A stretch of DNA of 64,000 nucleotides from assembly GCF_001425165.1 (NCBI RefSeq), contig NZ_LMDU01000011.1, forward strand, positions 372,058 through 436,057, written 5' to 3'. Numbering within the stretch: position 1 is the first letter of the stretch; each line of letters opens with the position of its first letter. Source of the stretch: Pelomonas sp. Root405 (GTDB lineage Bacteria; Pseudomonadota; Gammaproteobacteria; Burkholderiales; Burkholderiaceae_C). Shown here one piece after another: positions 8,231-57,156 of the stretch. The translations under genes were made by a program, and so were the position numbers. The notes beneath the pieces are model-generated. The model ran no database searches, was not told the origin of the DNA, and saw nothing but the letters and a program-made list of their open reading frames with translations.

Positions 8231-9007
8231 ATGAGTGCCTTCCACGAAGAGACCGTCCTGACCGTCCACCACTGGACCGACCGCCTGTTCAGCTTCACGA
8301 CGACGCGCGACCAGGCGCTGCGTTTTTCAAATGGCCACTTCACCATGATCGGCCTCAAGGGCGAGAACGGTAAGCCGCTGCTGCGGGCCTACAGCATCGT
8401 CAGCGCCAACTACGAGGAGCAGCTGGAGTTCCTCAGCATCAAGGTGCCGGACGGCCCGCTGACGTCGAAGCTGCAGCACATCAAGCCAGGCGACAAGATC
8501 GTCGTCGGCCGCAAGCCCACGGGCACGCTGCTGATCGACTATTTGCTGCCGGGCAAGACCCTCTACCTGCTGGGCAGCGGCACGGGCCTGGCGCCCTTCA
8601 TCAGCATCGTGCGCGACCCGGTGACCTACGAACGCTTCGAGAAGGTCGTCATCGTTCACGGCGTGCGCGAGGTGGCTGAGCTGGCCTACCACGACCACCT
8701 CACGGTGGACCTGCACCAGCACGAGTTCCTCGGCGAGTTCGCCAGTGAGCAGCTGCTGTATTACCCGACCGTCACGCGCGAACCCTACAAGAACATGGGC
8801 CGCATCACCGACCTGATCCAGACCGGCAAGCTGCAGGCCGACCTGGGCCTGCCGGCGTTGGACCCCGAGAACGACCGCATCATGCTGTGCGGCAGCCCGG
8901 CGCTGCTGAAGGACATGCAGGAGATGCTGGACATCCGCGGCTTCAAGGAAGGCAGCACGACGACGCCGGGCGACTACGTCATCGAACGAGCTTTTGTAGA
9001 AAAGTGA
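8231..9007 (+). CDS. fpr: Ferredoxin/flavodoxin--NADP reductase
   Basis: A 258-residue FAD enzyme moving electrons between NADPH and ferredoxin or flavodoxin. It shows the FAD motif RAYSIVSAN (R-x-Y-S), the NADP-binding LGSGTGLAPF and the C-terminal CGSPALLKDM segment. The ending ...DYVIERAFVEK is typical of the bacterial Fpr subclass. It lies 71 bp downstream of soxR on the same strand, a link that suits oxidative-stress control of iron-sulfur reduction. Immediately after its TGA begins repeat copy A. Confidence 0.96.
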   Translation: MSAFHEETVLTVHHWTDRLFSFTTTRDQALRFSNGHFTMIGLKGENGKPLLRAYSIVSANYEEQLEFLSIKVPDGPLTSKLQHIKPGDKIVVGRKPTGTLLIDYLLPGKTLYLLGSGTGLAPFISIVRDPVTYERFEKVVIVHGVREVAELAYHDHLTVDLHQHEFLGEFASEQLLYYPTVTREPYKNMGRITDLIQTGKLQADLGLPALDPENDRIMLCGSPALLKDMQEMLDIRGFKEGSTTTPGDYVIERAFVEK

Positions 9008-9102
9008 GCCCCTCGCCCGAGGGGACGGCGATGCTCGCGGGGCCTGCCCCGCTCGCACATCGCCAGACGGGCCGGCCTGGGGCGGCCCGGCGCTCGGCCC
9101 GC
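9008..9102 (+). repeat. Stop-anchored intergenic repeat, copy A
   Basis: Begins directly after the fpr TGA with GCCCCTCGCCC, continues CGAGGGGACGGCGATG and ends GGCGCTCGGCCCGC. It is the shortest copy: the variable segment found after GCCCCTCGCCC in the other copies is absent. The central hairpin has a GCGGGG/CCCCGC stem where copies C and E have GCGGC/GCCGC. It separates fpr from the convergent response regulator. Confidence 0.85.
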
Positions 9103-9136
9103 GACAGGCGCCAAGCCCTCCTCGCCTGCTTGGCGC

Positions 9137-9958
9137 CTACATGCCCTTGAACAAGTGCGTGTAGCTGCGGCTGACTTCGAGCTTCTCGGTCAGCCCGCGC
9201 ACACCCACCAGCTGCCGGCCGCGGAAGTCGCGGGTGATGCCGTCGATGGCACGCGCATTGACCAGCGTGGAGCGGTGAATCTGCCAGAAGACCTGCGGGT
9301 CCAGCTCGTCCACCAGCTCCTTGATGGGCTTGCGGATCAGCGCCTCGACCTTGGCGGTCTGCACGCGGGTGTACTTCTCGTCGCTGATGAAGAACAGCAC
9401 GTCCTCGACCGGGATCATCTGGATGGCCTGGCCGACCGTGGCCTGGATCCACTGCAGATAGCTCGGCTTGGCGCCGCCGCCGCTGACCTGGGCGCTCAGC
9501 TTGTGCAGCAGCTGCTGCAGCGGCACTGACGATGTCTCGACCGACTCGCTGCCTTCGCGCTGGGCCAGGCGCTTCTTGATGCGCGCGACCGTCAGCTGCA
9601 GCCGCTCGCGCTCGGCGGGCTTGAGCACATAGTCGGCCACGCCCTGCTCGAAGGCCTCGACGGCGTACTGGTCGTAGGCGGTGATGAAGACGATCTCGGG
9701 CACCAGCCAGTCGTCGTCCTCCGGCAGCTGGGCAATCTGACGGGCGGCGTCGACGCCCGTCAGGCCCGGCATGCGGATGTCGAGGAAGACCAGGTCGGGC
9801 TTGTGCTCCCGGGTCAGCTCGACGGCCTCCAGGCCGTTCTTGGCCTCGGCCACGATGTCCAGCTCGGGCCAGACCTCGGTGAGGCGGCTGCGGAGCTGTT
9901 CGCGCATCAGTCGTTCGTCGTCGGCCAGGATGGCGCGGATGGGTGCTGCTGTGTTCAT
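9137..9958 (-). CDS. LytTR-family response regulator
   Basis: A 273-residue two-component regulator with an N-terminal receiver domain (acidic DD at 13-14, phosphoacceptor D60 in FLDIRMPG, Lys in YVLKPAERE) and a C-terminal LytTR DNA-binding domain (EDVLFFISDEKYTRVQT, FWQIHRSTLVNARAI). It is the last gene of an operon with a LytS-type kinase and a small membrane protein, 19 nt after the latter, and is most likely the cognate partner of that kinase. It resembles AlgR/LytR-type regulators. The targets are unknown. Confidence 0.94.
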   Translation of the reverse strand: MNTAAPIRAILADDERLMREQLRSRLTEVWPELDIVAEAKNGLEAVELTREHKPDLVFLDIRMPGLTGVDAARQIAQLPEDDDWLVPEIVFITAYDQYAVEAFEQGVADYVLKPAERERLQLTVARIKKRLAQREGSESVETSSVPLQQLLHKLSAQVSGGGAKPSYLQWIQATVGQAIQMIPVEDVLFFISDEKYTRVQTAKVEALIRKPIKELVDELDPQVFWQIHRSTLVNARAIDGITRDFRGRQLVGVRGLTEKLEVSRSYTHLFKGM

Positions 9959-9977
9959 GCCGACGATGCTACTAGCC

Positions 9978-10379
9978 TCAGACCGACGTGGACCTCGCCG
10001 CGTTGGCGCGGCTGCGGTTGCGCAGCACGACGAAGAGCAGCAGGCCGAGCAGGATAAGCGGCGAGCTGAGCACGGCCCCCACGCCAAGCAGGCTGGCCAC
10101 GACCAGGGCGATCACGCCGCCGACGATGAGCAGCGGCAGCGCCAGGCCAAGCAGCAGCACCAGCGGCAGCACGATGACGCAGACGACGCCGGCGACAAAG
10201 AGGCCGATGGCGGCGCCCAGCCAGTCGCCGAAGTCGCTGTCACCGAGGAAGAACTCGCCATCGTCCAGCACGATGTGCATGTCCGGGCCGTGGTGGTTGA
10301 GCAGCGCAAAGCCGCCAAACATCGCCAACACCACCATCAGCGCAGTGCCGATGAACAGGATCTTGAAGAGGGTTTTCAT
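9978..10379 (-). CDS. Small membrane protein encoded between kinase and regulator
   Basis: A 133-residue protein with an N-terminal transmembrane helix (residues ~5-27), a short acidic extracytoplasmic loop (HHGPDMHIVLDDGEFFLGDS), two long hydrophobic segments (~55-105) and a basic tail (RNRSRANAARSTSV). I do not recognise a family. Its ATG overlaps the kinase stop by 4 bp, so its production is tied to the kinase. It may be a co-sensor or accessory component of the signalling system. That role is inferred from position only. Confidence 0.85.
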   Translation of the reverse strand: MKTLFKILFIGTALMVVLAMFGGFALLNHHGPDMHIVLDDGEFFLGDSDFGDWLGAAIGLFVAGVVCVIVLPLVLLLGLALPLLIVGGVIALVVASLLGVGAVLSSPLILLGLLLFVVLRNRSRANAARSTSV

Positions 10380-11842
10380 GCCGTGGCTCCTTCGTCGTTG
10401 CGGCTGCGGTAGGGCACGGTGATCGTGACGACCGTGCCGCTGGGTTGGTTCTCGGTGACGGTGACGCTGGCCTTGCTGCCGTGCAGCAGTTGCAGGCGCT
10501 CGCGGATATTGGCCAGGCCCACGCCGGTGCCGCTGGTGGCGGCGCGGCCGAAGCCCAGGCCCGTGTCGGCCACGATGACGGCCAGCTTGCCGTGCACGAT
10601 CTCGGCCTTGACCTTGAGCGTGCCGCCCTCGGCCTTGGGCTCCAGGCCGTGCTTGATGGCGTTCTCGACCAGGCCCTGGATCATCATGGGCGGGAACTCG
10701 GCGGACAGCAGGCCCTCGGGCACGTCGATCTCCGTCTGCAGGCGCTCTTCCATGCGAACCTTCAGGATCTCGAGGTAGGGGCGGATGACGGCCAGCTCAC
10801 GGCCCAGGTCACGCACGCCGCCATTGGCATTGGCCTCGCGCATGGTGGGCATGGAGGCCCGCAGCAGCGCGATCAGGTTCTTCTGCATCTGGCTGGCGCG
10901 CGGCGGGTCGGTCTCGATGAGGTGGTCGATGCTCGCCAGCGTGTTGAACAGGAAGTGCGGCTCGACCTGGGCCTGCATGGCGGCCATGCGGGCTTCGATG
11001 ACCTGGCGCTTGAGCGCCTCGCTCTCGGCGTTCTCGGCGGCCTGGGCGGCCTTGACCTCGGCCTGGATGCGGCCCTTGTACATGGCCTTGATGACGGCGG
11101 AGGCCAGCACCCAGAGGATGGCCAGGTCCATCAGCGAATCGCCGGCATGGATGATGGTGACGCGCTTGCGGCTCTGCGCCTGGCTGGCTTCCTCGGCAGC
11201 TTCCCGCAGCGCGGCCTGGGCTTCGGCGGCGGCCACCTGCGCCTCGGTGACTTCCTCCGCCTCCTGCTTGAGCTGGCTCAGCTGGTCCTTGGCCTGGTCG
11301 ATGGCAGCGCGGATGTCCTCGGGGCGGGCGCTCTTGGGAAAGTCGATGGAGATGGCGGGGGCAGCGGCGTCTTCGGCAACCTTGGGTTCGCCGTCCTCGT
11401 CAACGGCACTGGCGGCGCTGGCGGCACTGGCACCGGAGGATGCAGGGCGCACCGGCTGGATGCGCACGCCGCGCTCGTCGATCTTGACCTCGTAGTGGAC
11501 GGCACCTTTCTCGCCGTCCTTCTTGGCCGCCTTCTCGGCCGCCTGGCGCGCCTTGTCGGCGGCCTTCCTGGCGTCGGCCTCAAGCCTGGCGTGGCGGCGC
11601 GCCGCGGCGCCGTGATCGTGGTCCTCGACCTGCTCGCTGATGCGCCAGGTGAAGGGCGGCAGGTTCTTCAGCACATTGACGCCGATCAGCAGCGCCAGGG
11701 ACAGCAGCACGAAGCGCTTCCAGCTGATGCCGACCAGCCAGCCGGCGTAGATGTGGAAGTAGCGCACCACCGTGCCGGAAAAACGCTGCCAGCGCTCGAT
11801 CCAGAGCTTTTGCTGGGGGCTGGGTGTGAAGGAGGGAGTCAT
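10376..11842 (-). CDS. LytS/YehU-type sensor histidine kinase with Ala-rich coiled coil
   Basis: A 488-residue kinase. The His_kinase motif EPHFLFNTLASI places the phosphoacceptor at about H296, with the N box NAIKHGLE and glycine-rich GTGVGLANIRERL further on. One membrane segment lies near residues 35-55 (FVLLSLALLIGVNVL) and another around 245-265. Between them are long charged Ala/Lys/Glu segments likely to form coiled coils, which is unusual for this family. The ATG at 11842, preceded by GGAGGGAG-like sequence, is chosen over a longer frame. It heads the operon and is translationally coupled to the small membrane protein. Confidence 0.93.
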   Translation of the reverse strand: MTPSFTPSPQQKLWIERWQRFSGTVVRYFHIYAGWLVGISWKRFVLLSLALLIGVNVLKNLPPFTWRISEQVEDHDHGAAARRHARLEADARKAADKARQAAEKAAKKDGEKGAVHYEVKIDERGVRIQPVRPASSGASAASAASAVDEDGEPKVAEDAAAPAISIDFPKSARPEDIRAAIDQAKDQLSQLKQEAEEVTEAQVAAAEAQAALREAAEEASQAQSRKRVTIIHAGDSLMDLAILWVLASAVIKAMYKGRIQAEVKAAQAAENAESEALKRQVIEARMAAMQAQVEPHFLFNTLASIDHLIETDPPRASQMQKNLIALLRASMPTMREANANGGVRDLGRELAVIRPYLEILKVRMEERLQTEIDVPEGLLSAEFPPMMIQGLVENAIKHGLEPKAEGGTLKVKAEIVHGKLAVIVADTGLGFGRAATSGTGVGLANIRERLQLLHGSKASVTVTENQPSGTVVTITVPYRSRNDEGATA

Positions 11843-12035
11843 GGCCGTTGTGTCGTCGTTGGGGCCACTGTAAGCAGGCGCCCCGGGTGGCGTGGGGCCG
11901 GAGCGACACGCCGGCCGGCCTGGGTGACGAACTGCATGGGAGAGCGACAGGCCGGCCGCCCCGCGAGGGCGCCGCTGCGAGCGGTGCGGCAATAGTTCAC
12001 GGACCGCATGGCGGCGCCCACCGGCCGGCCAGCAA

Positions 12036-12059
12036 AAAGCCCGCCGAGGGGCGGGCTTT
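12036..12059 (-). terminator. Rho-independent terminator of the YceI gene
   Basis: A 10-bp perfect stem (AAAGCCCGCC / GGCGGGCTTT) with a 4-nt loop. On the minus strand it is followed by a T run, 21 bp past the stop of the first YceI gene. The 12060-11843 stretch towards the kinase gene holds nothing else I recognise. Confidence 0.85.
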
Positions 12060-12080
12060 GAAGGACGGGCCGGGAGCTGC

Positions 12081-12647
12081 TTACTGCTTGATCGCCTCGG
12101 CCTGGATCAGCAGGCGCACGTTGTCGGGAATGCCCGGCACGCCGTAGCTGATGCCCCACTGGCTGCGCTGGATGGTGGCCTCGAAGTCGCCGCCGCAGAC
12201 CTCGCGCTTCAGGCGCGGGTGGTCATAGCAGTTGAAGCCGGTGGCGGTCAGCGTGACGGGGTGGGTCTTGTCGCGCAGCGTCAGGTTGCCGGTCACGCTG
12301 ACGAGCTTGTCGCCGTTGAAGGTCAGCTTGTCGCCGGCGAACTTGGCGGTCGGGAACTGCTCGACGCCGAAGAAGTCGTTGCTCTTGAGGTGTCCATCGA
12401 AGGGGCCGACGCCGGTGGAGATGGACGTCATGTCCAGCGTCACCTCGAAGCGGCCGGTCTTGGCGGCCTTGTCGAAGGTGATGGAACCTTCCTTCTTGTC
12501 CCAGCGGCCACGCGAGGTGCTGGTGCCGAAGTGCTTGGCCTCCCAGGTCACGAAGGTGTGCGTGGGGTCGATCACGTAGGTGGCGCTCTGGGCCTGAGCG
12601 ACGCCCGCGGCGGCAAGCAGGGCGGTGAGCAGCAATGCGTTCTTCAT
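12081..12647 (-). CDS. Periplasmic YceI family protein (isoprenoid-binding lipocalin fold)
   Basis: A 188-residue exported protein: signal peptide ~1-20 ending in AQA, then a YceI domain (YVIDPTHTFVTWEAKHFGTS, DGHLKSNDFFGVEQFPTAKF, LTLRDKTHPVTLTATGFNC). YceI proteins bind polyprenoid or fatty-acid-like ligands in the periplasm. It is the last gene of an alkB-cytochrome b561-yceI-yceI run and ends in a clear terminator. Its two cysteines (NCYD..REVCGG) could form a disulfide. Confidence 0.93.
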   Translation of the reverse strand: MKNALLLTALLAAAGVAQAQSATYVIDPTHTFVTWEAKHFGTSTSRGRWDKKEGSITFDKAAKTGRFEVTLDMTSISTGVGPFDGHLKSNDFFGVEQFPTAKFAGDKLTFNGDKLVSVTGNLTLRDKTHPVTLTATGFNCYDHPRLKREVCGGDFEATIQRSQWGISYGVPGIPDNVRLLIQAEAIKQ

Positions 12648-12689
12648 CGATGGGTCTCCGGGGGGTGGGAAGGAAAGGGAAGGCAGAGG

Positions 12690-13223
12690 TTACAGGCCGG
12701 CGAAAGCCAGCTTGAATTTGACGGTTACATCGTTGGCGACCATGGACGTGTCGGCCCATTCGCCGTCGCCGATCTTGAAGTCCAGCCGCTTGATGGCGAC
12801 GCTGCCCGAGGCGATACCGCCGGCCACGGTGATGGGCACGGTGACGTCGCGGCTGGCGCCCTTGATGGTCAGCTTGCCGGCGACGTCGTATTTGCCGGGG
12901 CCCGTTGGCTTGATGGCGCTGGAGACAAAGGTCGCCTTGCCGTTGCGCTTGGTGTCGAACCAGGGCGCCTTGGCCAGCTCGGCGTCGAAACTGGCATCGC
13001 CCAACGACACGCTGCCCAGGTCCACCGTGAAGGCGATCTTGCCGGCCTCGGGTTTCTTGGCGTCGAAGTCCAGCGCAGCTTCGAACTTCTTGAACGTGCC
13101 ATCGACCGGCACGCCCATCTGCTTGAAGGTGAAGCTGACATCGCTCTTGGCAGGCTGCAGCGTGGCGGCATGTGCGGCCAGGGCGCTGGTGGCGATCAGC
13201 AGTGCGGAAAACAGGCGTTTCAT
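12690..13223 (-). CDS. Second YceI family protein
   Basis: A 177-residue exported protein with a signal peptide (LIATSALAAHA) and a divergent YceI domain (SDVSFTFKQMGVPVDGTFKKF, IKRLDFKIGDGEWADT). It is only distantly similar to the neighbouring YceI, so it is not a recent tandem duplicate. It lies 13 bp after the cytochrome b561 gene. The cytochrome b561 + YceI pairing recurs in proteobacteria and suggests a shared membrane redox or lipid role. Confidence 0.92.
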   Translation of the reverse strand: MKRLFSALLIATSALAAHAATLQPAKSDVSFTFKQMGVPVDGTFKKFEAALDFDAKKPEAGKIAFTVDLGSVSLGDASFDAELAKAPWFDTKRNGKATFVSSAIKPTGPGKYDVAGKLTIKGASRDVTVPITVAGGIASGSVAIKRLDFKIGDGEWADTSMVANDVTVKFKLAFAGL

Positions 13224-13236
13224 TGGGGTCCTTTCG

Positions 13237-13776
13237 TCAGGCGCGGCCCAGGCCCATGCGGGCGAGCAGGCGGTCACGGTCGATGAGATGGTGCTTGAGC
13301 GCACCGGCCACATGGGCTGCCACCAGCAGCCCCAGGCCATAGGCGGCGAACTTGTGGACGAGCTTGAAGACCTCGGCCAGCTCCTTGTCCTTCGGCACGA
13401 AGTCGGGCAGCGGCAAGACGCCGAACCAGACGATGGGGAAGCCCGCCGCCGAGCTGTAGGCCCAACCGGCCAGTGGCACGGCGAAGAAGAGCACGTAGAG
13501 CAGGCTGTGCGTCAGATGGGCGACGCGCGCCTGCCAGGCCGGCATGGGCAGGTCCGCCGGCGGGCGGTGCGTCAGGCGCCACAGCAGGCGCAGCGCCGAC
13601 AGCGTCAGGATGGTGACGCCCGCCCACTTGTGCCAGTTGTAGAGCTTGAGCCGCGTCGGCGAGAACGGCAGGCTCGTCATGTAGAGCCCCATGCCAAGAG
13701 CGCCGACAATGGCCAGCGCCAGCAGCCAGTGCAGCGCGATGGCGACGGGGGTGTAGCGGTTGGCAGGGCTCATCAT
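13237..13776 (-). CDS. Cytochrome b561
   Basis: A 179-residue integral membrane di-haem b protein with four predicted helices. Histidines likely to ligate haem appear in IALHWLLALAI, LYNWHKWAG, VAHLTHSLLYV and KLVHKFAAYGLGLLVAAHV. It probably carries electrons between the quinone pool and periplasmic acceptors. It is 59 bp downstream of alkB and 13 bp upstream of a YceI gene on the same strand. MM start: either ATG (13776 or 13773) is possible. Confidence 0.93.
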   Translation of the reverse strand: MMSPANRYTPVAIALHWLLALAIVGALGMGLYMTSLPFSPTRLKLYNWHKWAGVTILTLSALRLLWRLTHRPPADLPMPAWQARVAHLTHSLLYVLFFAVPLAGWAYSSAAGFPIVWFGVLPLPDFVPKDKELAEVFKLVHKFAAYGLGLLVAAHVAGALKHHLIDRDRLLARMGLGRA

Positions 13777-13835
13777 GGGCTCGCAGTGTGTTCCGTGCAG
13801 TCCGGCGAGCGGTTCACCGGTCTTGACGCCATTGT

Positions 13836-36995: not shown

Positions 36996-38969
36996 TCAAC
37001 GGCGCGGCACCAAAAAGCTCATCGGCTGGCGCCGCAGCCGCGCGCGGATGGCCGCGTAGACGCGCTTGCGATCGGCCAGGCGAACGCCGCGCGAGCGCAT
37101 CGCGACCTTGAAGGCGCAGAAGAAGCTGACGCCGACGTTGAGCATGCCGATGCCGAGGATGCACAGCACGCAGGACCAGAAGGCCCAGGTCGCCATGACG
37201 CCGACACCGAGCGCACCCACGGCCGCAGCGAGCTGACCGGTCGCGAGCGTCACGTGGCGCACATCCAGGTCCAGGCCGATGAAGCCGAGCAGCGGCGGCG
37301 CCAGGCCCAGCATCAGGCCGAGGCTGATATTGGCCGTCAGCCCGGAGATGTTGGCCCGCCACCAATGCGACCAGGCGCGCGCGCGCGCCTGGCCGACGGT
37401 ACCGACGATGCGCGGATTCCAGGCGATGGCGCTGTCCAGGCGATGGAAGACGAACCAGTTCTCCACCCAACCCGCGATCAGGCTGGATGCGAACAGCAGC
37501 GTGCCGGTGAAGGCTGCGAACAGCAGCGAGGGGCCGAACAGGCTGAGCGAGTCCAGCACGTACTCGGCCTCCCGCTCGCCGACCAGCGGCATGCCGAAGG
37601 CGAACCAGCACAGCCCCTGCACGGCCAGCACCAGCGGCGCGACGACGCTGAGGTTGCCGATGACGCCGGCAACCTGCGAGCGCACGAGATGGGTCACCTC
37701 GTCGACGAAGCCGACCACGCCGTCATCCCGGTCGATGTAGAGCAGCCGGTCGGCCATGGCCGGCGCCGTCATGGCCGGCTGCTTGGTCGCCACCGTCCAG
37801 TGCAGCAGATGGATGAGGACGAAGCAAGACGCGTAGTTGACGCCGGCCCAGAAACCGCCCCAGAAGGCCGTGAAGCCCAGCAGCGCGATGGCGAACTTCA
37901 GGAAGGTGGTGCCGGCCAGCACGGCCCCGCCGCCGGCCGCGCGCCTGATCATGTCGCCGTACTCGCTGCGGCTGCGGGTGATGTAGTGCTCGCCGGTCTC
38001 GGCGCTGCGCTCGGCCACCTTGCGCGCCAGCAGCGAGTAATGGCGTGCGAACAGCGTGCGCAGGCTGCGCCGCTCGTGCACCACGCGCACCAGGCCGGCA
38101 ATGAGCCGCAGCAGCTCGCGTTGCGGCTGCCTGGACAGCAGGCAGGCCAGCAGCGCCTCGATGCGGTCCAGCCGCGCGCCCAGCTGCTCCACCGAGAACA
38201 TCAGGTCGACCGACACGCCATGCGCTTCCAGATGCGCCGGCACCGTCTGCGCGGCGGCGCGGCAGCGGTCCAGCAACGCGTGCAGGTACTGCATGGCCGG
38301 CGCCAGGCCGGCGGGGTCGCCCGTCAGCGCGCGCTCGACGGCCTCCCAGGCGGCGGGCAGCTTGTGAAAGGGCCGGTCCTGCAGCGTCAGCTCGTCCATG
38401 CGCACACGCAGTGAGCCGGACAGCCCCACCGCATGCACGCTGCTGACGAGCACGGTGACCGCGGCGCGCATCTCGACGCGCCAGCCGCCGTCGGGCGCGG
38501 TCGAGAACAGCAGGCTCAGCCGGGCCAGCAGCTCATCGTCGATGGCGGCGATCCAGTCCTCGTCGGTCTCATCGCCGAAGAGCAGCTCGAACAGTTCCGC
38601 GAGGTCGCGCGTGTCGGTGGTGGCCGGCAGCAGGCGGCGGCGCAGGCGGCCGAGGAATTCGCTCCACAGCGCCATGCGCGGCGCAAAGCCGACCTCGGCA
38701 AACAGCGCGACCGCGTCGACATCGTTCCAGACGCCGCCGATGACACCGGCAAACGCCGCGGCGTGCTCGGGGTGGCGCTCCAGCACATTCAGCAGGTGCT
38801 TGAGGCGGACGATGGGCCGCGGGGTGCCGAGTGCCTTGACGGCCTCCTCACGCGGCGCATGCCGCAGCCATTCGAGCAGGCGCACCAGCCACAGGTTGCG
38901 CTCAGCCAGCTGCGCCTGCGGGTCGGCCGCGTTCAGCAGCGCGGTGAGGTCCCAACTGCGACTGGTCAA
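36996..38969 (-). CDS. SpecificRecomb (Gcr-type) membrane protein
   Basis: A 657-residue protein of the family named site-specific recombinase (PF10136). It has no tyrosine or serine recombinase motifs and is clearly a membrane protein. The first ~350 residues are helical and soluble (WLVRLLEWLRHAPREE, DETDEDWIAAIDDELLAR); about eight membrane helices follow (GGGAVLAGTTFLKFAIALLG, FGPSLLFAAFTGTLLFASSL). The start is TTG at 38969 with AAGGA six bases before it; no ATG exists nearby. The gene begins just after repeat copy B. Its cellular role is unknown; the recombinase name should not be relied on. Confidence 0.88.
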   Translation of the reverse strand: MTSRSWDLTALLNAADPQAQLAERNLWLVRLLEWLRHAPREEAVKALGTPRPIVRLKHLLNVLERHPEHAAAFAGVIGGVWNDVDAVALFAEVGFAPRMALWSEFLGRLRRRLLPATTDTRDLAELFELLFGDETDEDWIAAIDDELLARLSLLFSTAPDGGWRVEMRAAVTVLVSSVHAVGLSGSLRVRMDELTLQDRPFHKLPAAWEAVERALTGDPAGLAPAMQYLHALLDRCRAAAQTVPAHLEAHGVSVDLMFSVEQLGARLDRIEALLACLLSRQPQRELLRLIAGLVRVVHERRSLRTLFARHYSLLARKVAERSAETGEHYITRSRSEYGDMIRRAAGGGAVLAGTTFLKFAIALLGFTAFWGGFWAGVNYASCFVLIHLLHWTVATKQPAMTAPAMADRLLYIDRDDGVVGFVDEVTHLVRSQVAGVIGNLSVVAPLVLAVQGLCWFAFGMPLVGEREAEYVLDSLSLFGPSLLFAAFTGTLLFASSLIAGWVENWFVFHRLDSAIAWNPRIVGTVGQARARAWSHWWRANISGLTANISLGLMLGLAPPLLGFIGLDLDVRHVTLATGQLAAAVGALGVGVMATWAFWSCVLCILGIGMLNVGVSFFCAFKVAMRSRGVRLADRKRVYAAIRARLRRQPMSFLVPRR

Positions 38970-38989
38970 TTCCGGTCCTTGACTCTTTC

Positions 38990-39108
38990 GGGCCGAGCGC
39001 CGGGCCGCTCCCAAGCCGGCCCGTCCTGGCGATGTGCTTGTCGGTCGAGCCGGCAAGCATCGCCGTCCCCTCGGGGGACCGACCAAGGTAGGCCTTGGGC
39101 GAGGGGCT
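38990..39108 (-). repeat. Stop-anchored intergenic repeat, copy B
   Basis: On the minus strand it starts one base after the apaG TGA with GCCCCTCGCCC, has a short variable segment, then CCCCCGAGGGGACGGCGATG, the hairpin (CTTGCCGG / CCGACAAG, one mismatch) and GGCGCTCGGCCCG. It separates apaG from the downstream SpecificRecomb gene on the same strand. Confidence 0.85.
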
Positions 39109-39483
39109 TCAATGCAAACTGGCGCTGTCGGCCAGGAGGAACTCGTCGACGTCGGTGAAGAAGATGTCGCAGGCCTCGGTGACGCACAGGAAGCGACCGC
39201 GCATCGTGCCTTGCGGCGTGCCGATCTGGGCCCAGGAGCTGTACTGGAAGCTCTGCCCGGGCGCCAGCACCGGCTGGTGGCCGACGACGGCCAGGCCGTC
39301 GACAACCTGCAGCTGGCCGCGCGCATCGGTGATCTCCCAGTGCCGGCCGATCAACTGGCCCAGCACGTCGCCGGTGTTCTCGATGGTGACGGTGTAGCTG
39401 AACGCATACAGGCCTTGCTCGAGATGGGTCTGCTCGGGCAGGGCCTGCACGACAACGCTGCAACTGAAACGGGGGTTCGCCAT
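39109..39483 (-). CDS. apaG: Co2+/Mg2+ efflux protein ApaG
   Basis: A 124-residue single-domain protein with the immunoglobulin-like ApaG fold: FAYTVTIENTG-type segment (AFSYTVTIENTG), LIGRHWEITDARGQ, VVGHQPVLAPGQSFQYSSW, GTPQGTMRGRF. Length equals the E. coli protein. Linked genetically to divalent cation resistance; the precise role is unsettled. The ATG giving MANPRFSCSV is chosen. It is followed one base after its stop by repeat B. Confidence 0.95.
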   Translation of the reverse strand: MANPRFSCSVVVQALPEQTHLEQGLYAFSYTVTIENTGDVLGQLIGRHWEITDARGQLQVVDGLAVVGHQPVLAPGQSFQYSSWAQIGTPQGTMRGRFLCVTEACDIFFTDVDEFLLADSASLH

Positions 39484-40912: not shown

Positions 40913-40941
40913 ATGTCACTCCAAGGGTGCGCCGCGGCTTC

Positions 40942-41077
40942 GGGCCGAGCGCCGGGCCGCTCCCAAGCCGGCCCGTACGGCGATGTGCTTGCGGCTCGAT
41001 GCCGCAAGCATCGCCATCCCCTCGGGGGATCGACCAGGCGCGCCCGCGTTCAGCGTGGCGCGACTGGGCGAGGGGCC
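40942..41077 (-). repeat. Stop-anchored intergenic repeat, copy C
   Basis: On the minus strand it begins one base after the fasciclin TGA: GGCCCCTCGCCC, a ~40-nt variable segment containing CGCTGAACGCGGGCG, CCCCCGAGGGGATGGCGATG, then a perfect hairpin CTTGCGGC / GCCGCAAG around ATCGA, ending GGCGCTCGGCCCG. It lies between tag and the convergent fasciclin gene. Confidence 0.87.
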
Positions 41078-41530
41078 TCACTTCGGCATGATGACGCTGT
41101 CGATCACGTGAATGACGCCGTTGTCGGCGGCGATGTCGGTGGCCGTCACCTTGGCGTTGTCGACCATGACACCGCCGCTGGTCGACACGGTCAGCTCACT
41201 GCCCTGAACGGTCTTGACCTTGCCGGCCTTGACGTCCTTGGCCATGACCTTGCCCGGCACGACGTGGTAGGTCAGCACGGCGGTCAGCTTGGCCTTGTCC
41301 TTCAGCAGCGCGTCGAGGTCGGCCTTGGGCACCTTGGCGAAGGCGGCATCCGTGGGCGCGAAGACGGTGAACGGGCCGGGGCCCTTGAGCGTGTCCACCA
41401 GACCGGCCGCTTGCAGCGCGGTGGCGAGGGTCTTGAAGTTGCCTGCGCCAACGGCGGTATCGACGATGTCCTTGGCTTGGGCGGCCAGGGCGGTCAGGGA
41501 GAGCAGGCTCACGGCGATCAGTTTCTTCAT
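41078..41530 (-). CDS. Single-domain fasciclin (FAS1) exported protein
   Basis: A 150-residue protein with a signal peptide ([16 protein letters not shown]) and one FAS1 domain ([68 protein letters not shown]). FAS1 domains mediate adhesion or bind ligands outside the cell. It is the last of three same-strand fasciclin genes; 52 bp separate it from the second. Repeat C follows its stop. Confidence 0.94.
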
Positions 41531-41582
41531 GGAAAGCTCCTAGGGAGGGTTGGGGAACGGGGGGATGGGTAGAAAAGCCCGA

Positions 41583-42512
41583 TCAGGGGCGGGGCAGGAT
41601 CACGGTGTCGATGAGATGGACAACGCCATTGCTGGTCAGCACGTCGGTGGCCGTGATGGCGGACTTGCGGCCGCGGGCATCGGTGATGGCGAGCGTGGCG
41701 TCAACGGTGAAGGTCTGGCCCTGCACGGTCGTGATCGCTGCTCCCACCGGCACGTCGGCCTTCAGCACGCGGGACGGCAGCACGTGGTAGGTCAGCACCT
41801 GGGTCAGCAGCGGCTTGTTGGCAAGCAGCTGTTGCTTGGTGACGCCCAGTTCGGTGAGCAGCTTCGCGAACGCGCTGTTCGTGGGCGCGAAGACGGTGAA
41901 CGGGCCGGTGCCGCTGAGCGTGCTGACGAGATCGGCGGCGACGACGGCCTCGACCAGGATGCTGAGGTCGGGCACGGCCTGCGCGGTCTGCACGATGTTG
42001 AGGTTGGCCGGCAGCAGCACGCGGTCGACGACATGGATGATGCCGTTGCGGGCCATGATGTCGGTGCCCGTGATGCGCGCCTGGCGGTTGCGGCCATCGG
42101 TGACGACGAGGTCATTGCCGACCTTGTCGACCTTGAAGATGCCGCCCTGCAGCGGCGTGATCGGCTTGCCGAGTGGCACCGAGGCCTGCGGCACGCTGGC
42201 ACCCAGCACGTGGTACTGCAGCACCGTGCGCAGCAGCGGCTTGTCGGCCAGCAGCTGGGCCTTGCTGACACCGAGTTCGGTCAGCAGTGCCGCGAAGGCG
42301 ACGTCCGTTGGTGCCAACACGGTGAAGGGCCCCGCCTCGGACAGCGGGCCGGCCAGATCGGCCGCCACCACCGCCTCGGCGAGGATGCTGAAACGGCTGT
42401 CGTTCTGGGCGACCTCGACCACGGTCGGCTCGGGGTCGCTGCCGCCACAGCCGGCCAGAACACCTGCGAGCAAGGCGGCGGCGAGACCGCGCCACAAGGT
42501 TTGCAAACTCAT
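41583..42512 (-). CDS. Two-domain fasciclin lipoprotein
   Basis: A 309-residue lipoprotein: lipobox LAGC with Cys22, then two FAS1 domains (first ~35-165 with GPFTVLAPTDVAFAALL and LQYHVLGASVP; second ~170-305 with [17 protein letters not shown] and LTYHVLPSRVLKADV). The two domains are clearly related to one another, suggesting internal duplication. It is predicted to sit in the outer membrane or periplasm. Middle gene of the three. Confidence 0.94.
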   Translation of the reverse strand: MSLQTLWRGLAAALLAGVLAGCGGSDPEPTVVEVAQNDSRFSILAEAVVAADLAGPLSEAGPFTVLAPTDVAFAALLTELGVSKAQLLADKPLLRTVLQYHVLGASVPQASVPLGKPITPLQGGIFKVDKVGNDLVVTDGRNRQARITGTDIMARNGIIHVVDRVLLPANLNIVQTAQAVPDLSILVEAVVAADLVSTLSGTGPFTVFAPTNSAFAKLLTELGVTKQQLLANKPLLTQVLTYHVLPSRVLKADVPVGAAITTVQGQTFTVDATLAITDARGRKSAITATDVLTSNGVVHLIDTVILPRP

Positions 42513-44931: not shown

Positions 44932-44934
44932 GCC

Positions 44935-50463: not shown

Positions 50464-50479
50464 CGGGGCCCTTTCCTGC

Positions 50480-50675
50480 GGGCCGAGCGCAGGGCCGCCC
50501 CAAGCCGTCCCACCGCGCGATGTGCGAGCGGCTCAACGCCGCGAGCATCGCCGTCCCCACGGGGGCTGAGCCCGGACACAGGCGCACCCAGTGGGCGCGC
50601 TGTGCCTGCCGCAGCGCGGCCTGCAAGACCGACCAGGCCCGCTCGCGTTCAGCGACGCAGGGCTGGGCGAGGGGC
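50480..50675 (-). repeat. Stop-anchored intergenic repeat, copy D (longest)
   Basis: On the minus strand, 7 nt after the stop of the chalcone-isomerase-like gene and directly after a second TGA, it begins GCCCCTCGCCC. A ~110-nt variable segment follows, including GTCGCTGAACGCGAGCG shared with E and about 60 nt found in no other copy. Then come the GGGGACGGCGATG block, hairpin CTCGCGGC / GCCGCTCG and GCGCTCGGCCCGC. It fills the space between convergent gph and the isomerase-like gene. Confidence 0.83.
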
Positions 50676-51376: not shown

Positions 51377-51457
51377 ATGTTCATCACGCGGAAGTACATC
51401 ACGGGGTCGAGCGACCGGGGAGCCTGGCCCTGGCGTCGCTGGTTCACCGCCGACTGA
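51377..51457 (+). CDS. trpL: trp operon leader peptide
   Basis: A 26-codon frame, MFITRKYITGSDRG followed by AWPWRRWFTAD, with three Trp codons within six positions (17, 19, 22). It lies ~100 bp before trpE and is followed by a terminator hairpin, the classical attenuation layout. Ribosome stalling at the Trp codons when charged tRNA-Trp is scarce would favour read-through. No Shine-Dalgarno precedes it; the predicted transcription start lies within four bases of the ATG, so it may be leaderless. Confidence 0.75.
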   Translation: MFITRKYITGSSDRGAWPWRRWFTAD

Positions 51458-51462
51458 TGCTG

Positions 51463-51525
51463 CTTGGCGCGCCCTGACGCGCTTTTTCCCGCGTTGCCCG
51501 TTCTCCACCGGGCTGCACGCCAAGC
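51463..51525 (+). terminator. trp attenuator with alternative antiterminator pairing
   Basis: Terminator: 5-bp all-GC stem GCGCG / CGCGC (51467-51471 with 51478-51482), 6-nt loop, then TTTTT (51483-51487). Mutually exclusive alternative: GCTTGGCG (51462-51469) can pair with CGCCAAGC (51518-51525), an 8-bp perfect match that uses the terminator's 5' arm. This would serve as antiterminator. Confidence 0.65.
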
Positions 51526-51555
51526 CCTGAAACTTGTCTTTTCAAGGTTTGTGTC

Positions 51556-53046
51556 GTGATCACTGAACTCGAATTCCAGAGCCTCGCCGCCGAGGGCTAC
51601 AACCGCATCCCGCTGATCAGCGAGGCCTTTGCGGATCTCGAAACTCCGCTGTCCCTCTACCTCAAGCTTTGCGCGCCCGGCTCGGGGCCGTGCCGCAACA
51701 GCTTCCTGCTCGAATCCGTCGTCGGCGGCGAGCGCTTCGGGCGCTACTCCTTCATCGGCCTGCCGGCGCGCACGCTGATTCGCGCGACCGGTCAGCATTG
51801 CGAGGTGTTGACCGATGGCGCCATCGTCGAGACGCACGAGGGCAACCCGCTCGATTTCATCGCCGCCTACCAGGACCGCATCAAGCCGCGCATCCCCGCC
51901 GGTCTGCCGCGCTTCTGCGGAGGCTTGGCCGGCTACTTCGGCTACGAGGCCGTGCGTGCCATCGAGAAGCGCCTGGACCGCGATCACAAGGGCGAGTCCC
52001 TCGGTACGCCTGACATCGTGCTGCTGCTGTCCGAGGAAGTCGCTGTCATCGACAACCTGTCGGGCCGGCTCTACCTCATCGTCTGGGCCGACCCGCGCCA
52101 GCCCGAGGCCTACTTCCGCGCCAAGAAGAAGCTCTCGCAGTTGCGCGACAAGCTGACCTACTCGGTCAGCGTGCCCAAGGTCCAGCGGTCCGAGTCGCAT
52201 GCGCCGACACGCGCCTTCGCCAAGGCCGACTACCTAGCCGCCGTCGCGAAAGCCAAGGACTACATCGCCGCCGGCGACCTGATGCAGGTGCAAGTGGGCC
52301 AGCGCATCGCCAAGCCCTACAAGGCCGAACCCATTGCGCTGTACCGGGCGCTGCGGGCGCTGAACCCCAGCCCCTATATGTACTTCTACGACCTGGGCGA
52401 CTTCCAGATCGTCGGCGCCAGCCCCGAAATTTTGGTGCGCGAGGAGCACGCCAGCGACGGCAGCCGCAAGGTGACGATCCGGCCGCTGGCCGGCACCCGC
52501 CCGCGCGGCGCGACGCCCGAGCGGGACATCGAACTGGAAGCCGAACTGCAGGCCGATCCCAAGGAGCGCGCCGAGCACCTGATGCTGATCGACCTGGCGC
52601 GCAACGACATCGGCCGCATCGCCCGCACCGGCAGCGTCAAGGTGACGCAGGCCTTCACCATCGAGCGCTACTCGCACGTCATGCACATCGTCTCCAACGT
52701 CGAGGGCGTGTTGCGCCCCGAGGTCGGCCAGCTCGACGTGCTGAAAGCCACCTTCCCCGCCGGCACGCTGACGGGCGCGCCCAAGGTGCGGGCGATGGAG
52801 CTCATCGACGAACTGGAGCCCGTGCAGCGCGGCATCTATGGCGGCGCCTGCGGCTACCTGAGCTTTGCCGGCGACATGGACCTGGCGATTGCGATCCGCA
52901 CCGGCATCATCAAGAACGGCATGCTCTACGTGCAGGCGGCGGCGGGTGTGGTGGCCGACTCGGTGCCTGAGCTGGAATGGCAAGAAACAGAGGCCAAAGC
53001 CAGAGCGCTCTTGCGCGCCGCTGAACTCGTCGAGGAGGGCTTCTAA
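51556..53046 (+). CDS. trpE: Anthranilate synthase component I
   Basis: A 496-residue subunit converting chorismate and ammonia (from TrpG) to anthranilate, the first committed step of tryptophan synthesis. It has the N-terminal regulatory region with LLES (Trp-feedback type), and chorismate-binding motifs (ASPEILVR, RPLAGTRPRGATPERD, HLMLIDLARNDIGRIA, FPAGTLTGAPKVRAMELIDE). The start is GTG at 51556. trpG begins directly after its TAA. Confidence 0.96.
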   Translation: MITELEFQSLAAEGYNRIPLISEAFADLETPLSLYLKLCAPGSGPCRNSFLLESVVGGERFGRYSFIGLPARTLIRATGQHCEVLTDGAIVETHEGNPLDFIAAYQDRIKPRIPAGLPRFCGGLAGYFGYEAVRAIEKRLDRDHKGESLGTPDIVLLLSEEVAVIDNLSGRLYLIVWADPRQPEAYFRAKKKLSQLRDKLTYSVSVPKVQRSESHAPTRAFAKADYLAAVAKAKDYIAAGDLMQVQVGQRIAKPYKAEPIALYRALRALNPSPYMYFYDLGDFQIVGASPEILVREEHASDGSRKVTIRPLAGTRPRGATPERDIELEAELQADPKERAEHLMLIDLARNDIGRIARTGSVKVTQAFTIERYSHVMHIVSNVEGVLRPEVGQLDVLKATFPAGTLTGAPKVRAMELIDELEPVQRGIYGGACGYLSFAGDMDLAIAIRTGIIKNGMLYVQAAAGVVADSVPELEWQETEAKARALLRAAELVEEGF

Positions 53047-53631
53047 ATGCTGCTGATGATCGACAACTACGACAGCTTCACGTTCAACCTCGTCCAGTAC
53101 TTCGGTGAACTCGGCGCGGACGTGAAGGTCGTGCGCAACGACGAGATCACGGTGGCCGAGATGGCCGCGCTGAACCCGGATCACATCGTCTTCTCGCCCG
53201 GCCCCTGCACGCCCAACGAGGCGGGCGTCTGCGTGGAGGCCATCCAGCATTTCATCGGCAAGAAGCCGCTGCTCGGGGTGTGCCTGGGCCACCAGGCCAT
53301 GGGCCAGGCCCTCGGCGGCAAGATCATCCGCGCGCAGCGCCAGATGCACGGCAAGGCCAGCACGCTGACGACAGACCAGCGTGGCGTCTACACCGGCCTG
53401 CCCAAGGAGTTCTCGGTGATCCGCTATCACTCCCTCGTCATCGAGGAAGCGACCTGCCCGGCGGTGCTGGAGATCACGTCGCGCAGCGAGGACGGCGAAA
53501 TCATGGGCGTGCGCCACCGCGAGCTGGCCGGCACGGCCACGCCGCTGGAAGGCGTGCAGTTCCACCCCGAGTCCATCCTCAGCGAGCATGGGCACGCGAT
53601 GCTGCGCAACTTCCTGGAGTTGAGGCCATGA
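53047..53631 (+). CDS. trpG: Anthranilate synthase component II (glutamine amidotransferase)
   Basis: A 194-residue class I amidotransferase supplying ammonia to TrpE. The catalytic Cys is in [15 protein letters not shown] and the His-Glu pair in [13 protein letters not shown]; the N-terminus reads [23 protein letters not shown]. It may also serve p-aminobenzoate synthesis, as in relatives with one shared amidotransferase. Its TGA overlaps the ltaE ATG (ATGA). Confidence 0.96.
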
Positions 53632-54677
53632 GCGACTACGCGCCCGGCTCGGGCGGCAGCGGCGGGGATGCCGTGGTTGACCTGCGCAGCGACACGGTTA
53701 CCAAGCCGACGCGAGCCATGCTGGAAGCCATCGCCGCCGCCAAAGTCGGCGACGACGTCTTCGGCGACGACCCGACCGTCAACGCCCTGCAGGAGCGCGT
53801 CGCCGCCCTGCTCGGCAAGGAAGCCGCCCTCTTCATGCCCAGCGGCACGCAGAGCAACCTCTGCGCGCTGCTCGCCCATTGCGGCCGCGGCGACGAGTAC
53901 ATCGTCGGCCAGCTCGCCCATACCTACCGCTACGAAGGCGGAGGCGCGGCGGTGCTGGGCGGCATCCAGCCCCAGCCACTGAACAACCAGCCCGACGGCA
54001 CGCTCAAGCTCGACGACATCGCCGCCGCGATCAAGCCCGACGACCCGCACTTCGCGCGCACGCGGCTGCTGGCGCTGGAGAACACCTGGGGCGGCCAGGT
54101 GCTGTCCACGCAGTACACCAATGCCGCCTGTGAGCTGGCTCATTCGCGCGGCCTCGCCACGCACCTGGACGGCGCCCGCCTCTTCAACGCCGCGGTCGCC
54201 TCGGGCCGCAGCGTGGCGGACCTGGCGCGGGCCTTCGACTCGGTCTCCATCTGCTTCAGCAAGGGTTTGGGCGCGCCCATCGGCTCCATGCTGGTCGGTT
54301 CGCGCGAGCTGATCGCCAAGGCGCACCGCTCGCGCAAGATGCTCGGCGGCGGCCTGCGCCAAGTCGGCCTGCTGGCCGCGGCGGCCGACCATGCGCTGAC
54401 GCATCACGTGGCACGGTTGGCCGATGACCATGCGCTGGCCAAACGGCTGGCCGAGGGTCTGGCGGCGCTGCCCGGTGTCACGGTCACGCCACCGCAGACG
54501 AATATCGTCTTCGCCCAGATCAGTGACGGCCGCACGCCCGCCCTGTTGGAACACCTGAAATCGCGCGGCGTGCTGGCGACCGGCCTCATCGGGCTGCGTT
54601 TCGTCACGCACCTCGATGTCGACGCGGCCGGCATCGACCATGCCATCGCCGCAGCGCGCAAATTCCTGGAGGCCTGA
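53628..54677 (+). CDS. ltaE: Low-specificity L-threonine aldolase
   Basis: A 349-residue PLP enzyme cleaving L-threonine or allo-threonine to glycine and acetaldehyde. Motifs: [61 protein letters not shown] and the PLP Lys in [16 protein letters not shown]. The N-terminus has a short Gly/Ser extension ([13 protein letters not shown]). It sits inside the trp operon, coupled to trpG by ATGA, which is not part of the tryptophan pathway. Confidence 0.93.
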
Positions 54678-54679
54678 TC

Positions 54680-55180
54680 GTGTCGACGTCCACCTTGCTG
54701 ATCTCGCTCTTCGAGCAGAAGGCCGCCATTGATCGCGAGTTCTTCGCGGCGCTGGCCGGCGCGCCGTTGTCGCCCGAGAACCGCCACATTGCCATCCGCA
54801 CGCTCAACCACATCCACACGGTGGACCGCATCTTTGCGGCCCACCTGCGCGGCGAGCCGCACGGCCTCAAGGCCAGCAACACCGTGGACACGCCGACGCT
54901 GGAACAGCTGCGCGCCGCCGTCGAACGGGTGGACGGTTGGTACGTCGACTACGTGCGCGCACTGCGCCCGGAGCAATTCGAGGAAGTGCTGAGCTTTCGG
55001 TTCACCGACGGCGACGCCGGCCGCATGAGCCGCGAGGAAATCCTGGCCCATGTCATCCATCACGGCAGTCATCACCGCGGCAACGTCGGCATGCTGATGA
55101 AGCAGATCGACCAGGCACCGCCGCGCGACCTGTTCACCCGTTACCTGCATCAACACGAGCCCGCGCGCCGCTCGATCTGA
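54680..55180 (+). CDS. DinB-family protein
   Basis: A 166-residue four-helix-bundle DinB protein with putative metal-binding histidines: one near IRTLNHIHTVDRIF and two in HVIHHGSHHRGNVGML. Many members are thiol-dependent transferases or hydrolases; the activity here is unknown. The start is GTG, 2 bp after ltaE. The gene lies between ltaE and trpD, so it is part of the trp transcript. Confidence 0.9.
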   Translation: MSTSTLLISLFEQKAAIDREFFAALAGAPLSPENRHIAIRTLNHIHTVDRIFAAHLRGEPHGLKASNTVDTPTLEQLRAAVERVDGWYVDYVRALRPEQFEEVLSFRFTDGDAGRMSREEILAHVIHHGSHHRGNVGMLMKQIDQAPPRDLFTRYLHQHEPARRSI

Positions 55181-55189
55181 GGTCTGACC

Positions 55190-56224
55190 ATGGCAATCAC
55201 CGACAACGAAGCCCTGACCCGCGTCATCGAGCACCGCGAGATCTTCCACGACGAGATGCTGACGCTGATGCGCCGCATCATGGCTGGCGAGATGTCGCCC
55301 GTCATCGCCGCCGCGCTGCTGACCGGCCTGCGCGTGAAGAAGGAAACCATCGGCGAGATCACCGCCGCAGCGCAGGTCATGCGCGAGCTGTCCAACAAGG
55401 TGCCGCTGGGACCGCTGCCGCACCTCGTCGACGTCGTCGGCACCGGCGGCGATGGCGCCCACAGCTTCAACATCTCGACCTGCTCGATGTTCGTCGCGGC
55501 TGCGGCCGGCGCGCAGGTCGCCAAGCATGGCAACCGCAGCGTCAGCAGCAAGACCGGCAGCGCCGACGTGCTGGAGGCGCTCGGCGCCAACATCCAGCTG
55601 TCGCCGCGTGCCGTGGCGGCCTGCCTGGACGAATGCGGCATCGGCTTCATGTTCGCGCCCAACCACCACCCGGCGATGAAGAACATCGCGCCGGTGCGCC
55701 GCGAACTCGGCGTGCGCACCATCTTCAACATCCTCGGCCCGCTGACCAACCCGGCCGGCGCGCCCAACATCCTGATGGGCGTTTTCCACCCCGACCTCGT
55801 CGGTATCCAGGTGCGCGTGCTGCAGCGCCTGGGCGCCGAGCATGCGTTGGTGGTCTACGGCAAGGACGGCATGGACGAGATCTCGCTGGGCGCGACGACG
55901 CTGGTCGGTGAGCTCAAGGACGGTGCGGTGCGTGAGTACGAGATCCACCCCGAGGACTTCGGCATGGCCATGGCCAGCAACCGCAGCCTCAAAGTCGAGA
56001 ACCCCGAGCAGTCGCGCGAGATGCTGGTCGGCGTGCTCGACGGCAACCCGGGCCCGGCGCGCGACATCGTGCTGCTGAATGCCGGCGCGACGCTGTACGC
56101 CGCCAACGTGGCGCCGACCTTGGCCGATGGCATCGCCCGCGCCCGGGCGGCGCTGGACAGCGGCGCGGCGCGGGCCAAGCTCGATGCCTTCGTCAAGCAA
56201 ACCCAGCATTTGGGGAAAAGTTGA
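55190..56224 (+). CDS. trpD: Anthranilate phosphoribosyltransferase
   Basis: A 344-residue enzyme transferring phosphoribosyl from PRPP to anthranilate. PRPP site [16 protein letters not shown], then [57 protein letters not shown] and [11 protein letters not shown]. Length is standard. Its stop overlaps the trpC start by one base (TGATG). Confidence 0.96.
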
Positions 56225-57015
56225 TGAGCGATATCCTGAACCGCATCGTCGAGGTCAAGTGGGAAGAGATCTCGGCCGCCAAGCTCAGGCGTTCGCTGGC
56301 CTCGCAGCGTGAAGAGGCCGAAGCCCGCAAGGCCGAGCGCCTGGGCTTCGAGCGCTCGCTGCGCGCCAGCATCGCAGCGGGCCGCGCCGCCGTCATCGCC
56401 GAGATCAAGAAGGCCAGCCCCAGCAAGGGCGTGCTGCGCGAGGACTTCAAGCCCGGGCTGATTGCCGAGAGCTACGCCCGCAACGGCGCGGCCTGCCTGT
56501 CCGTGCTGACCGACGAGCGATTCTTCCAGGGCTCCGCCGCCTATCTGCGCGAGGCCCGCACCGCCTGCGAGCTGCCGGTGCTGCGCAAGGACTTCATGGT
56601 CGACGAGTACCAGGTCATGGAAGCCGGCGCGATGGGTGCCGACTGCATCTTGCTGATCGCCGCCTGCCTGGCCGACTCGCAGATGGCCGACCTCGAAGCC
56701 GCGGCGCATGCACTGGGCATGGATGTGCTGGTGGAAGTGCATGACGGTGATGAACTCGACCGTGCGCTGAAGCTGAAGACGCCGCTGGTCGGCATCAACA
56801 ACCGCAACCTGCGCACCTTCGACGTGACGCTGGACACGACGCTCGGCCTGCTGCCGCGCGTGCCGGCCGACCGGCTGCTGGTGACGGAATCCGGCATCCT
56901 CGGCGCGGCGGACGTGCAGCGCATGCGCGACGCCAACGTGCACGCCTTCCTCGTCGGCGAGGCCTTCATGCGTGCGCCCGACCCGGGTCAGGCGCTGGCC
57001 AACTTGTTCGCGTGA
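56224..57015 (+). CDS. trpC: Indole-3-glycerol phosphate synthase
   Basis: A 263-residue TIM-barrel enzyme closing the indole ring. Motifs: [19 protein letters not shown] with the catalytic Glu and Lys, [43 protein letters not shown] and [18 protein letters not shown]. The ATG overlapping the trpD stop is chosen. trpF, trpB and trpA are not in the window, so the pathway is split, as is usual in Burkholderiales. Repeat E starts 4 nt after its TGA. Confidence 0.96.
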
Positions 57016-57019
57016 TGAC

Positions 57020-57156
57020 GCCCCTCGCCCAATCTCGCATCGCTGAACGCGGGCGAGTCTGGTCGGTCCCCCGAGGGGACGGCGATGTTTGCGGCATCGA
57101 GCCGCAAGCACATCGCCCGGCGGGCCGGCTTGGGAGCGGCCCGGCGCTCGCCCCGC
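57020..57156 (+). repeat. Stop-anchored intergenic repeat, copy E
   Basis: Follows the trpC stop (TGATGAC then GCCCCTCGCCC), has a variable segment with TCGCTGAACGCGGGCGA, then CCCCCGAGGGGACGGCGATG, hairpin TTGCGGC / GCCGCAA and GGCGCTCGCCCCGC. Same orientation as the trp genes; it lies between trpC and ung, both plus strand. Confidence 0.87.

Follow-up and report, generated by a model that had tools for sequence, protein, structure and literature searches.

What is a repeat doing that occurs five times within 64 kb of a bacterial genome and each time begins at or just behind a stop codon? The stretch in question, referred to here as the window, is 64,000 nucleotides long and comes from Pelomonas sp. 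Root405 (contig NZ_LMDU01000011.1). A preliminary description had pointed out a polar intergenic repeat in it, with the GCCCCTCGCCC end of each copy facing the stop of the upstream gene. The answer we favor, at a probability of roughly 70%, is that the element is a non-autonomous mobile unit that couples translation across its insertion site, much like the mycobacterial interspersed repetitive units (MIRUs), and that it possibly depends on a transposase of the REP-associated tyrosine transposase (RAYT) type, where REP stands for repetitive extragenic palindrome.

Copies of the element and their placement

All five copies are borne out by the sequence, by pairwise comparison and by matches to our model of the element (R1):

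Copy A, 9008..9101, plus strand: short form without the variable segment, seen in the sequence; R1 match at 8978-9101, 70.3 bits
Copy B, 38989..39107, minus strand: 119-nt type; R1 match of 113.5 bits
Copy C, 40941..41076, minus strand: 136-nt type; R1 match of 149.5 bits
Copy D, 50479..50675, minus strand: 197-nt type with an extra internal module; R1 match of 69.5 bits
Copy E, 57020..57155, plus strand: 136-nt type; R1 match of 147.9 bits

The starts first assigned to A and E stand, whereas 38990, 40942 and 50480 are the 3' ends of B, C and D. The copies were also thought to share one order of segments; they do share their ends, but A has no variable segment and D has an additional module. 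As described, the GCCCCTCGCCC end lies 0-7 nt behind a stop, the distances being 0 nt for the fpr-like gene (stop at 9005-9007, directly before copy A), 1 nt for apaG (B), 1 nt for the fasciclin gene (C), 7 nt for the chalcone-isomerase-like gene (D) and 4 nt for trpC (E). The downstream neighbor is convergent at copies A, C and D. As to starts, the 3' end of B is only 19 nt from the start of the next co-oriented gene and that of E only 22 nt from the start of ung.

In pairwise comparison the copies in the window are 71-100% identical over 38-140 nt. The 16-nt core alone has six matches in the window at up to three mismatches, a number that 4 of 100 shuffles reach, and by itself it is weak evidence that chance could produce. 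The whole element is not a product of chance, given the identity between copies and the number of places detected genome-wide. A covariance model built from 29 copies found at least 87 places in the 5.81-Mb genome at E≤0.01, and this is a lower bound, with 150 of 12,831 candidates scored. The R1 listing for the genome has 96 rows, and removal of 8 duplicates left 88 places. The 20-nt pattern of the 3' end, allowing up to three mismatches, matches the genome 114 times, compared to 35 times when it is read backwards. A known RNA family was ruled out by the absence of any Rfam match at gathering score in the window.

A stop lies upstream of the 5' end of the element in 76 of the 88 places, 51 of which are between a stop and a start and 25 between two stops; the other 12 comprise 10 start/stop places, one of them inside a called gene, and 2 start/start places. 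Several copies between co-oriented genes are only 10-40 nt from the next start. Distances to the stop were taken from own copies scoring at least 85 bits (69 copies, reduced to 65 by dropping 4 without an anchor; window copies A and D score below 85 bits and are excluded) and from 51 copies in relatives, consisting of 10 of the 17 copies from one set and 41 chosen among the top-scoring places of the same-genus scan. The other 7 copies of that set were excluded manually, being the D orthologue and forms that were partial, variant or of the 79-nt type. The distance from a stop to the 5' end is between -3 and 13 nt in 58/65 own copies and 47/51 copies in relatives, compared to 4.7% for random intergenic placement, and the side-specific anchoring first suggested from five copies is thus evident across the genome. 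The stops at -1 to 13 nt are 60 TGA, 5 TAG and 1 TAA (n=66); stop usage in the window is 50 TGA, 8 TAG and 8 TAA (n=66). In other genera, 18 of 23 inspected copies have a stop at most 13 nt ahead of their 5' end; of the five that do not, three are inner array units. The presence of both orientations relative to the stop, which had been named as contrary to the proposal, is seen in one minor subtype, the reversed 79-nt form.

Termination, one of the functions first suggested, is not supported by these placements. More than half of the places (51/88) are between co-oriented genes, and of the hairpin with a T-run that marks intrinsic terminators at transcript ends the second part is rare, only 3 of the 88 having a TTTT no farther than 25 nt from the 3' end.

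Filled sites, empty sites and micro-ORFs

The trpC-ung junction, where copy E is located, can be compared in 19 same-genus genomes with a trpC match. In 15 of these the two genes overlap by 4 nt (ATGA) and in 2 they are separated by a 7-nt gap, while copy E is found in the remaining 2, our own genome (G000) and G006, with 22 and 36 nt to ung, respectively. Because 17 of 19 genomes have the overlap or the short gap, the copies are, by comparison of sequences, insertions, and the suggestion of a targeted mobile unit gains support from filled and empty sites. The sites of B and L041 are empty in G012; at site D, G006 and L094 have no copy and G012 has a plain one; G006 carries a copy at sites 5 and 7, both of which are empty in G012; and site 6 has a copy in G012 but none in the window. 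At site 11, which is filled in G012, G006 shows 10 nt, perhaps a remnant, and at site A the G012 sequence after the TAA stop is unrelated. Insertion at a stop/start junction, as described for MIRUs, is thus found at E and at other site pairs. TGA flanks the insert on both sides at E, B, L041 and sites 5, 6 and 7, which would fit either a duplicated DTGA target or a matching right end; divergence is too high to fix exact duplications.

At copies E and B, a predicted micro open reading frame (micro-ORF) runs across the element from the stop of one gene to the start of the next:

trpC (IGPS domain), 56224..57015, plus strand: upstream neighbor of copy E
Micro-ORF of copy E, 57015..57176, plus strand: predicted, 53 aa; its ATG overlaps the trpC stop and its TGA ends 1 nt short of the ATG of ung (57178)
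ung-like gene (UDG domain), 57178..57864, plus strand: downstream neighbor of copy E
apaG (ApaG domain), 39109..39483, minus strand: upstream neighbor of copy B
Micro-ORF of copy B, 38966..39112, minus strand: predicted, 48 aa; its TTG overlaps the apaG stop and its TGA overlaps the TTG called as start of the next gene

Copies A and C have open frames with a convergent gene on the far side, and the frame of D is closed. An ATG, GTG or TTG is located 4-6 nt before CCCCTCG in 47/65 own copies, compared to 26% in the control. Where own copies lie between co-oriented genes, start-bearing frames are open in 35/43 cases versus 43/83 for other frames, and in 24/43 cases versus 4/83 (Fisher p 2e-10) they terminate at -1 to +4 nt relative to a potential start codon of the following gene. 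In relatives, 16/27 start-bearing frames end at the next start versus 6/63 others (Fisher p 2e-6). Counted per tandem copy, 23/42 own copies and 16/30 copies in relatives are coupled. An offset of -1, which gives ATGA, occurs in 15 of the 24 own coupled frames and 5 of the 16 in relatives, so the internal ORF that meets the next gene at -4 spacing in MIRUs has a counterpart among the predicted frames.

Own coupled frames use element frame 0 in 15 cases, frame 1 in 8 and frame 2 in 1, and in the element consensus two frames are free of stops and the third is closed. Selection on one peptide was rejected, since the variability of the element has no clear three-base rhythm. With frames 0 and 1 both in use and no single peptide kept, it would be the act of reading that counts. 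In many copies we noticed by eye, without counting, that the stretch from the element to the next start has a tail with an ending like GGAnnACTGAYATG; such a tail would provide both the stop of the micro-ORF and a ribosome binding site.

In gene orientation the 79-nt form is the reverse complement of the main type. A second model, R2, which was built from eight copies, six of them from our own genome, ranks the 79-nt copies first. Six of nine inspected places have a frame that runs from on or beside the upstream stop to a TGA overlapping the next ATG; of the exceptions, L308 does have such a frame, but the upstream gene as called continues across it, and L305 and L322 do not fit. In the tandem array L254, two units have 48-aa frames, each with a TGA that overlaps the GTG of the next unit, while the third unit does not end there; no such pattern was found in arrays L253 and L255. 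Because a start codon usually touches the element and its frame often ends on the start of the next gene, the stop codon does not seem to be the functional point.

In the reading we favor, the element would insert at DTGA sites (D = A, G or T), frequently at junctions whose stop overlaps the next start or falls just short of it. A ribosome finishing the upstream gene would re-initiate at the overlapping ATG, GTG or TTG, read the micro-ORF (about 30-55 codons in the cases we wrote out) across the element, stop at the TGA overlapping or just before the next start, and re-initiate there. The micro-ORFs would in this way be translated and couple the neighboring genes, and the translational coupling of an operon could outlive the insertion. 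Between convergent genes, a copy would merely be a tolerated insertion after a stop.

The alternative that survives best, although we consider it doubtful, asks less of the element: it would enter any TGA-like target, only insertions behind stops would survive, and coupling frames would persist through chance or because the flanking genes alone are under selection, with the element itself unadapted. Convergent and uncoupled copies do exist, TGA is the commonest stop in the window anyway, and the missing three-base rhythm agrees with plain tolerance. Against it speak the concentration of coupling in the start-bearing frames, the two stop-free consensus frames next to a closed third, and the overlap geometry kept by array units.

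Separately, at 41255-42391 of the window we observed repeated DNA within and between two adjacent fasciclin-type genes (a 266-nt repeat, 72% identical, with related blocks), a sign of domain duplication.

Hairpins, hosts and candidate transposases

The subtypes of the element have both ends in common and differ in their interiors. The main subtypes are about 137 nt and about 119 nt, the latter with a short CCAAGG...CCTTGG hairpin, and the main forms span 117-137 nt. Other subtypes are 197-216 nt with an extra module, as in window copy D, and 79 nt without the third hairpin, and the remaining copies are deletion derivatives or truncated. The copies at L038:2039-2173 and L071:2077-2190 carry a different module (GGAGTCGGACACAAGCAGTCCCTGCGGACTGC) within the 3' hairpin, which adds another internal insertion point to the one known from the 197-216 nt form.

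The element is asymmetric and consists of four consecutive, different hairpins. The hairpins are conserved: among 34 copies of the 137-nt type, drawn from several genera, 24/46 predicted pairs have compensatory changes. In some genera most of the third stem has a different sequence that still pairs, and the 3' hairpin is almost invariant. When compared with shuffles, four of the five window copies are more stable than nearly all of them, while for copy D 170 of 200 shuffles were at least as stable. The pairing would suit single-stranded DNA or RNA alike.

Conserved hairpins behind stops might also be a 3'-end RNA element that protects the upstream mRNA or modulates its end, a role that has been discussed for REPs and bacterial interspersed mosaic elements, in which case the micro-ORFs would be by-products of stop-poor, GC-rich sequence. 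Polar placement and the 25/88 places between convergent genes, where coupling cannot matter, speak for such an element. We nevertheless think it improbable, given the co-oriented majority with several copies 10-40 nt from the next start, the scarcity of TTTT near the 3' end, the opposite orientation of the 79-nt form, and frame ends at the next start that are much rarer among control frames.

Every one of the 20 genomes examined in the genus has at least 15 matches. At E≤1e-6, matches were found in 26/250 genomes and 15/141 genera of the family sample, and in the order sample only in our own genome (1/300); both samples used strict filters with few candidates per genome, and G024, with 10 weak matches in the same-genus scan, has none in the family sample. 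Among the matches listed in the scan of named genomes, R1 has no match in 25/80 loci. Tandem arrays with units of 143-153 nt (L253-L256, in G196 and G277) are possible length-variable loci. Spread by plasmids, phages or viruses was rejected, with no plasmid or phage match and an exact 29-mer absent from viral contigs.

Of the two transposase candidates, RAYT-1 is an intact single-copy Y1 transposase (L092:7933-8637; G000:C1:782932-783636) present in 35/35 family genomes tested. It lies beside a gene that we take to be gltB and has GGGGTC-type repeats about 50 nt away on both sides, with no copy of the element nearby. RAYT-2 is a second, divergent Y1 protein, found in 18/18 element-bearing and 0/17 element-free family genomes. 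When 68 genomes were queried, full-length RAYT-2 was present in 28/31 element-bearing and 1/37 element-free genomes (G084), with fragments in G087; the element-bearing genomes without it are G013 and G126, where none was found, and G024, where it is broken. Merged without double counting and with kinship ignored, the co-occurrence is 40/43 element-bearing versus 1/49 element-free genomes, 12 of the 43 coming from the cross-match in the 35-genome test alone. The exception, L301 in G084, is a full-length RAYT-2 relative of 48% identity in a genome without R1 matches, and it may serve a diverged element invisible to R1.

RAYT-2 proteins are 281-301 aa long, with a weak Y1 core that scores under the cut-offs of Pfam and NCBIfam and a C-terminus resembling a helix-turn-helix (HTH). 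R1 matches occur at 1/30 RAYT-2 loci, and 6/29 have a GGGGTCAG half-repeat no more than 60 nt upstream. In the favored reading, RAYT-2 would probably read the conserved hairpins as single-stranded DNA, and it may move the element or may once have moved it. Its co-occurrence makes RAYT-2 a credible partner of the element but, with altered catalytic motifs and the element seldom adjacent, not a proven mobilizer. That RAYT-1 moves the element instead, with RAYT-2 co-occurring merely by shared ancestry, is the least probable alternative, since RAYT-1, although above the NCBIfam cut-off for REP-associated tyrosine transposases where RAYT-2 is below it, and although RAYT-2 is altered in several element-rich genomes, was rejected as the mobilizer for being in all 35 genomes tested, element-bearing or not, and for being flanked by GGGGTC-type repeats rather than by the element.

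Several observations weigh against the coupling element and its proposed partner. The gene calls come from a home-made codon-usage caller, and every in-frame start of the next gene was accepted. The window's empty site 6 has TAA and no TGA. A start codon at 4-6 nt is found in only 23/51 copies in relatives, and 19/42 own and 14/30 relatives' tandem copies are uncoupled, including the closed frames of L022, L024 and L028. No autonomous form with a gene between the ends was found among six loci with a lone 3' end, which proved to be deletion derivatives, truncated or decayed copies, one variant-end copy and one copy of the 79-nt type. As to RAYT-2, the HUH motif H-x-H is present in 12/29 aligned proteins and altered in 17/29 (HYD in our own genome), the tyrosine is missing in 8/29, and an element-like copy follows the RAYT-2 stop in only 2/29 loci (G014 and G016). 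In addition, G013 has many copies of the element and no RAYT-2 that we could find.

Comparison with known systems

Our literature search, consisting mostly of titles and abstract openings and with subscription papers largely outside its scope, found no publication naming this repeat. Three systems are close enough to be compared. REPs, according to excerpts from three papers (PMC2817692, PMC8049555, PMC3733652), are 20-40 bp extragenic palindromes with a GTAG or CGTC tag, a REPIN being two inverted REPs. In the same excerpts they are high in copy number, non-autonomous and subject to compensatory changes, GTAG REPs often give flanking ORFs a TAG stop, and RAYT genes are single-copy and vertically kept. 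The element described here is likewise multicopy, extragenic and non-autonomous with compensatory pairing, and it co-occurs with RAYT-2 as REPs do with a single-copy RAYT (40/43 versus 1/49 genomes). It differs in being asymmetric and longer; it is neither a tagged palindrome of 20-40 bp nor a pair of inverted REPs, and the candidate transposase gene is not framed by it, the RAYT-2 loci having no two inverted copies at their sides.

By motif only, RAYT-2 would belong to TnpA_Y1 subclass 2.1 (TIRYT): canonical RAYT-2 members have the NHYH and YVELNP motifs with the HTH-like C-terminus, and the upstream half-repeat at some RAYT-2 loci is a further likeness. One survey saw no REP-like sequences near the genes of this subclass (PMC6006769). 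The element is a candidate substrate for this large transposase subclass. More speculatively, and we hold this to be a tentative idea only, it could be the missing nucleic-acid partner of an orphan domesticated Y1 class, spreading through operons as a translational linker by means of stop-free frames in either orientation, while the transposase, without catalysis in several hosts, would now be a hairpin-binding protein.

MIRUs target DTGA and form variable-number tandem repeat arrays. They were reportedly described by Supply et al. in 1997. According to a 2025 review, they are short repeats, apparently mobile, whose insertions are at start codons and whose internal ORF is coupled to the gene at -4 nt spacing (PMC12548453). 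The element here resembles them in its position at overlapping stops and starts, its micro-ORF at -4 (ATGA) or nearby spacing, its polar orientation and the tandem arrays of some relatives, a likeness in the described features of MIRUs. In contrast to MIRUs, it occurs in other bacteria, is larger (79-216 nt), has four covarying hairpins, takes two orientations depending on subtype, is found between convergent genes as well, and co-occurs with a Y1 transposase. Translation-coupling mobile repeats have been cited for mycobacteria, and this would be a separate, larger and structured case, in which filled and empty sites across a genus together with a co-occurring transposase make it testable how mobile DNA spares operons. 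As a repeat after stop codons the element is ordinary; what makes it unusual is that it is a structured insertion, compatible with operons, that brings along a coupling frame.

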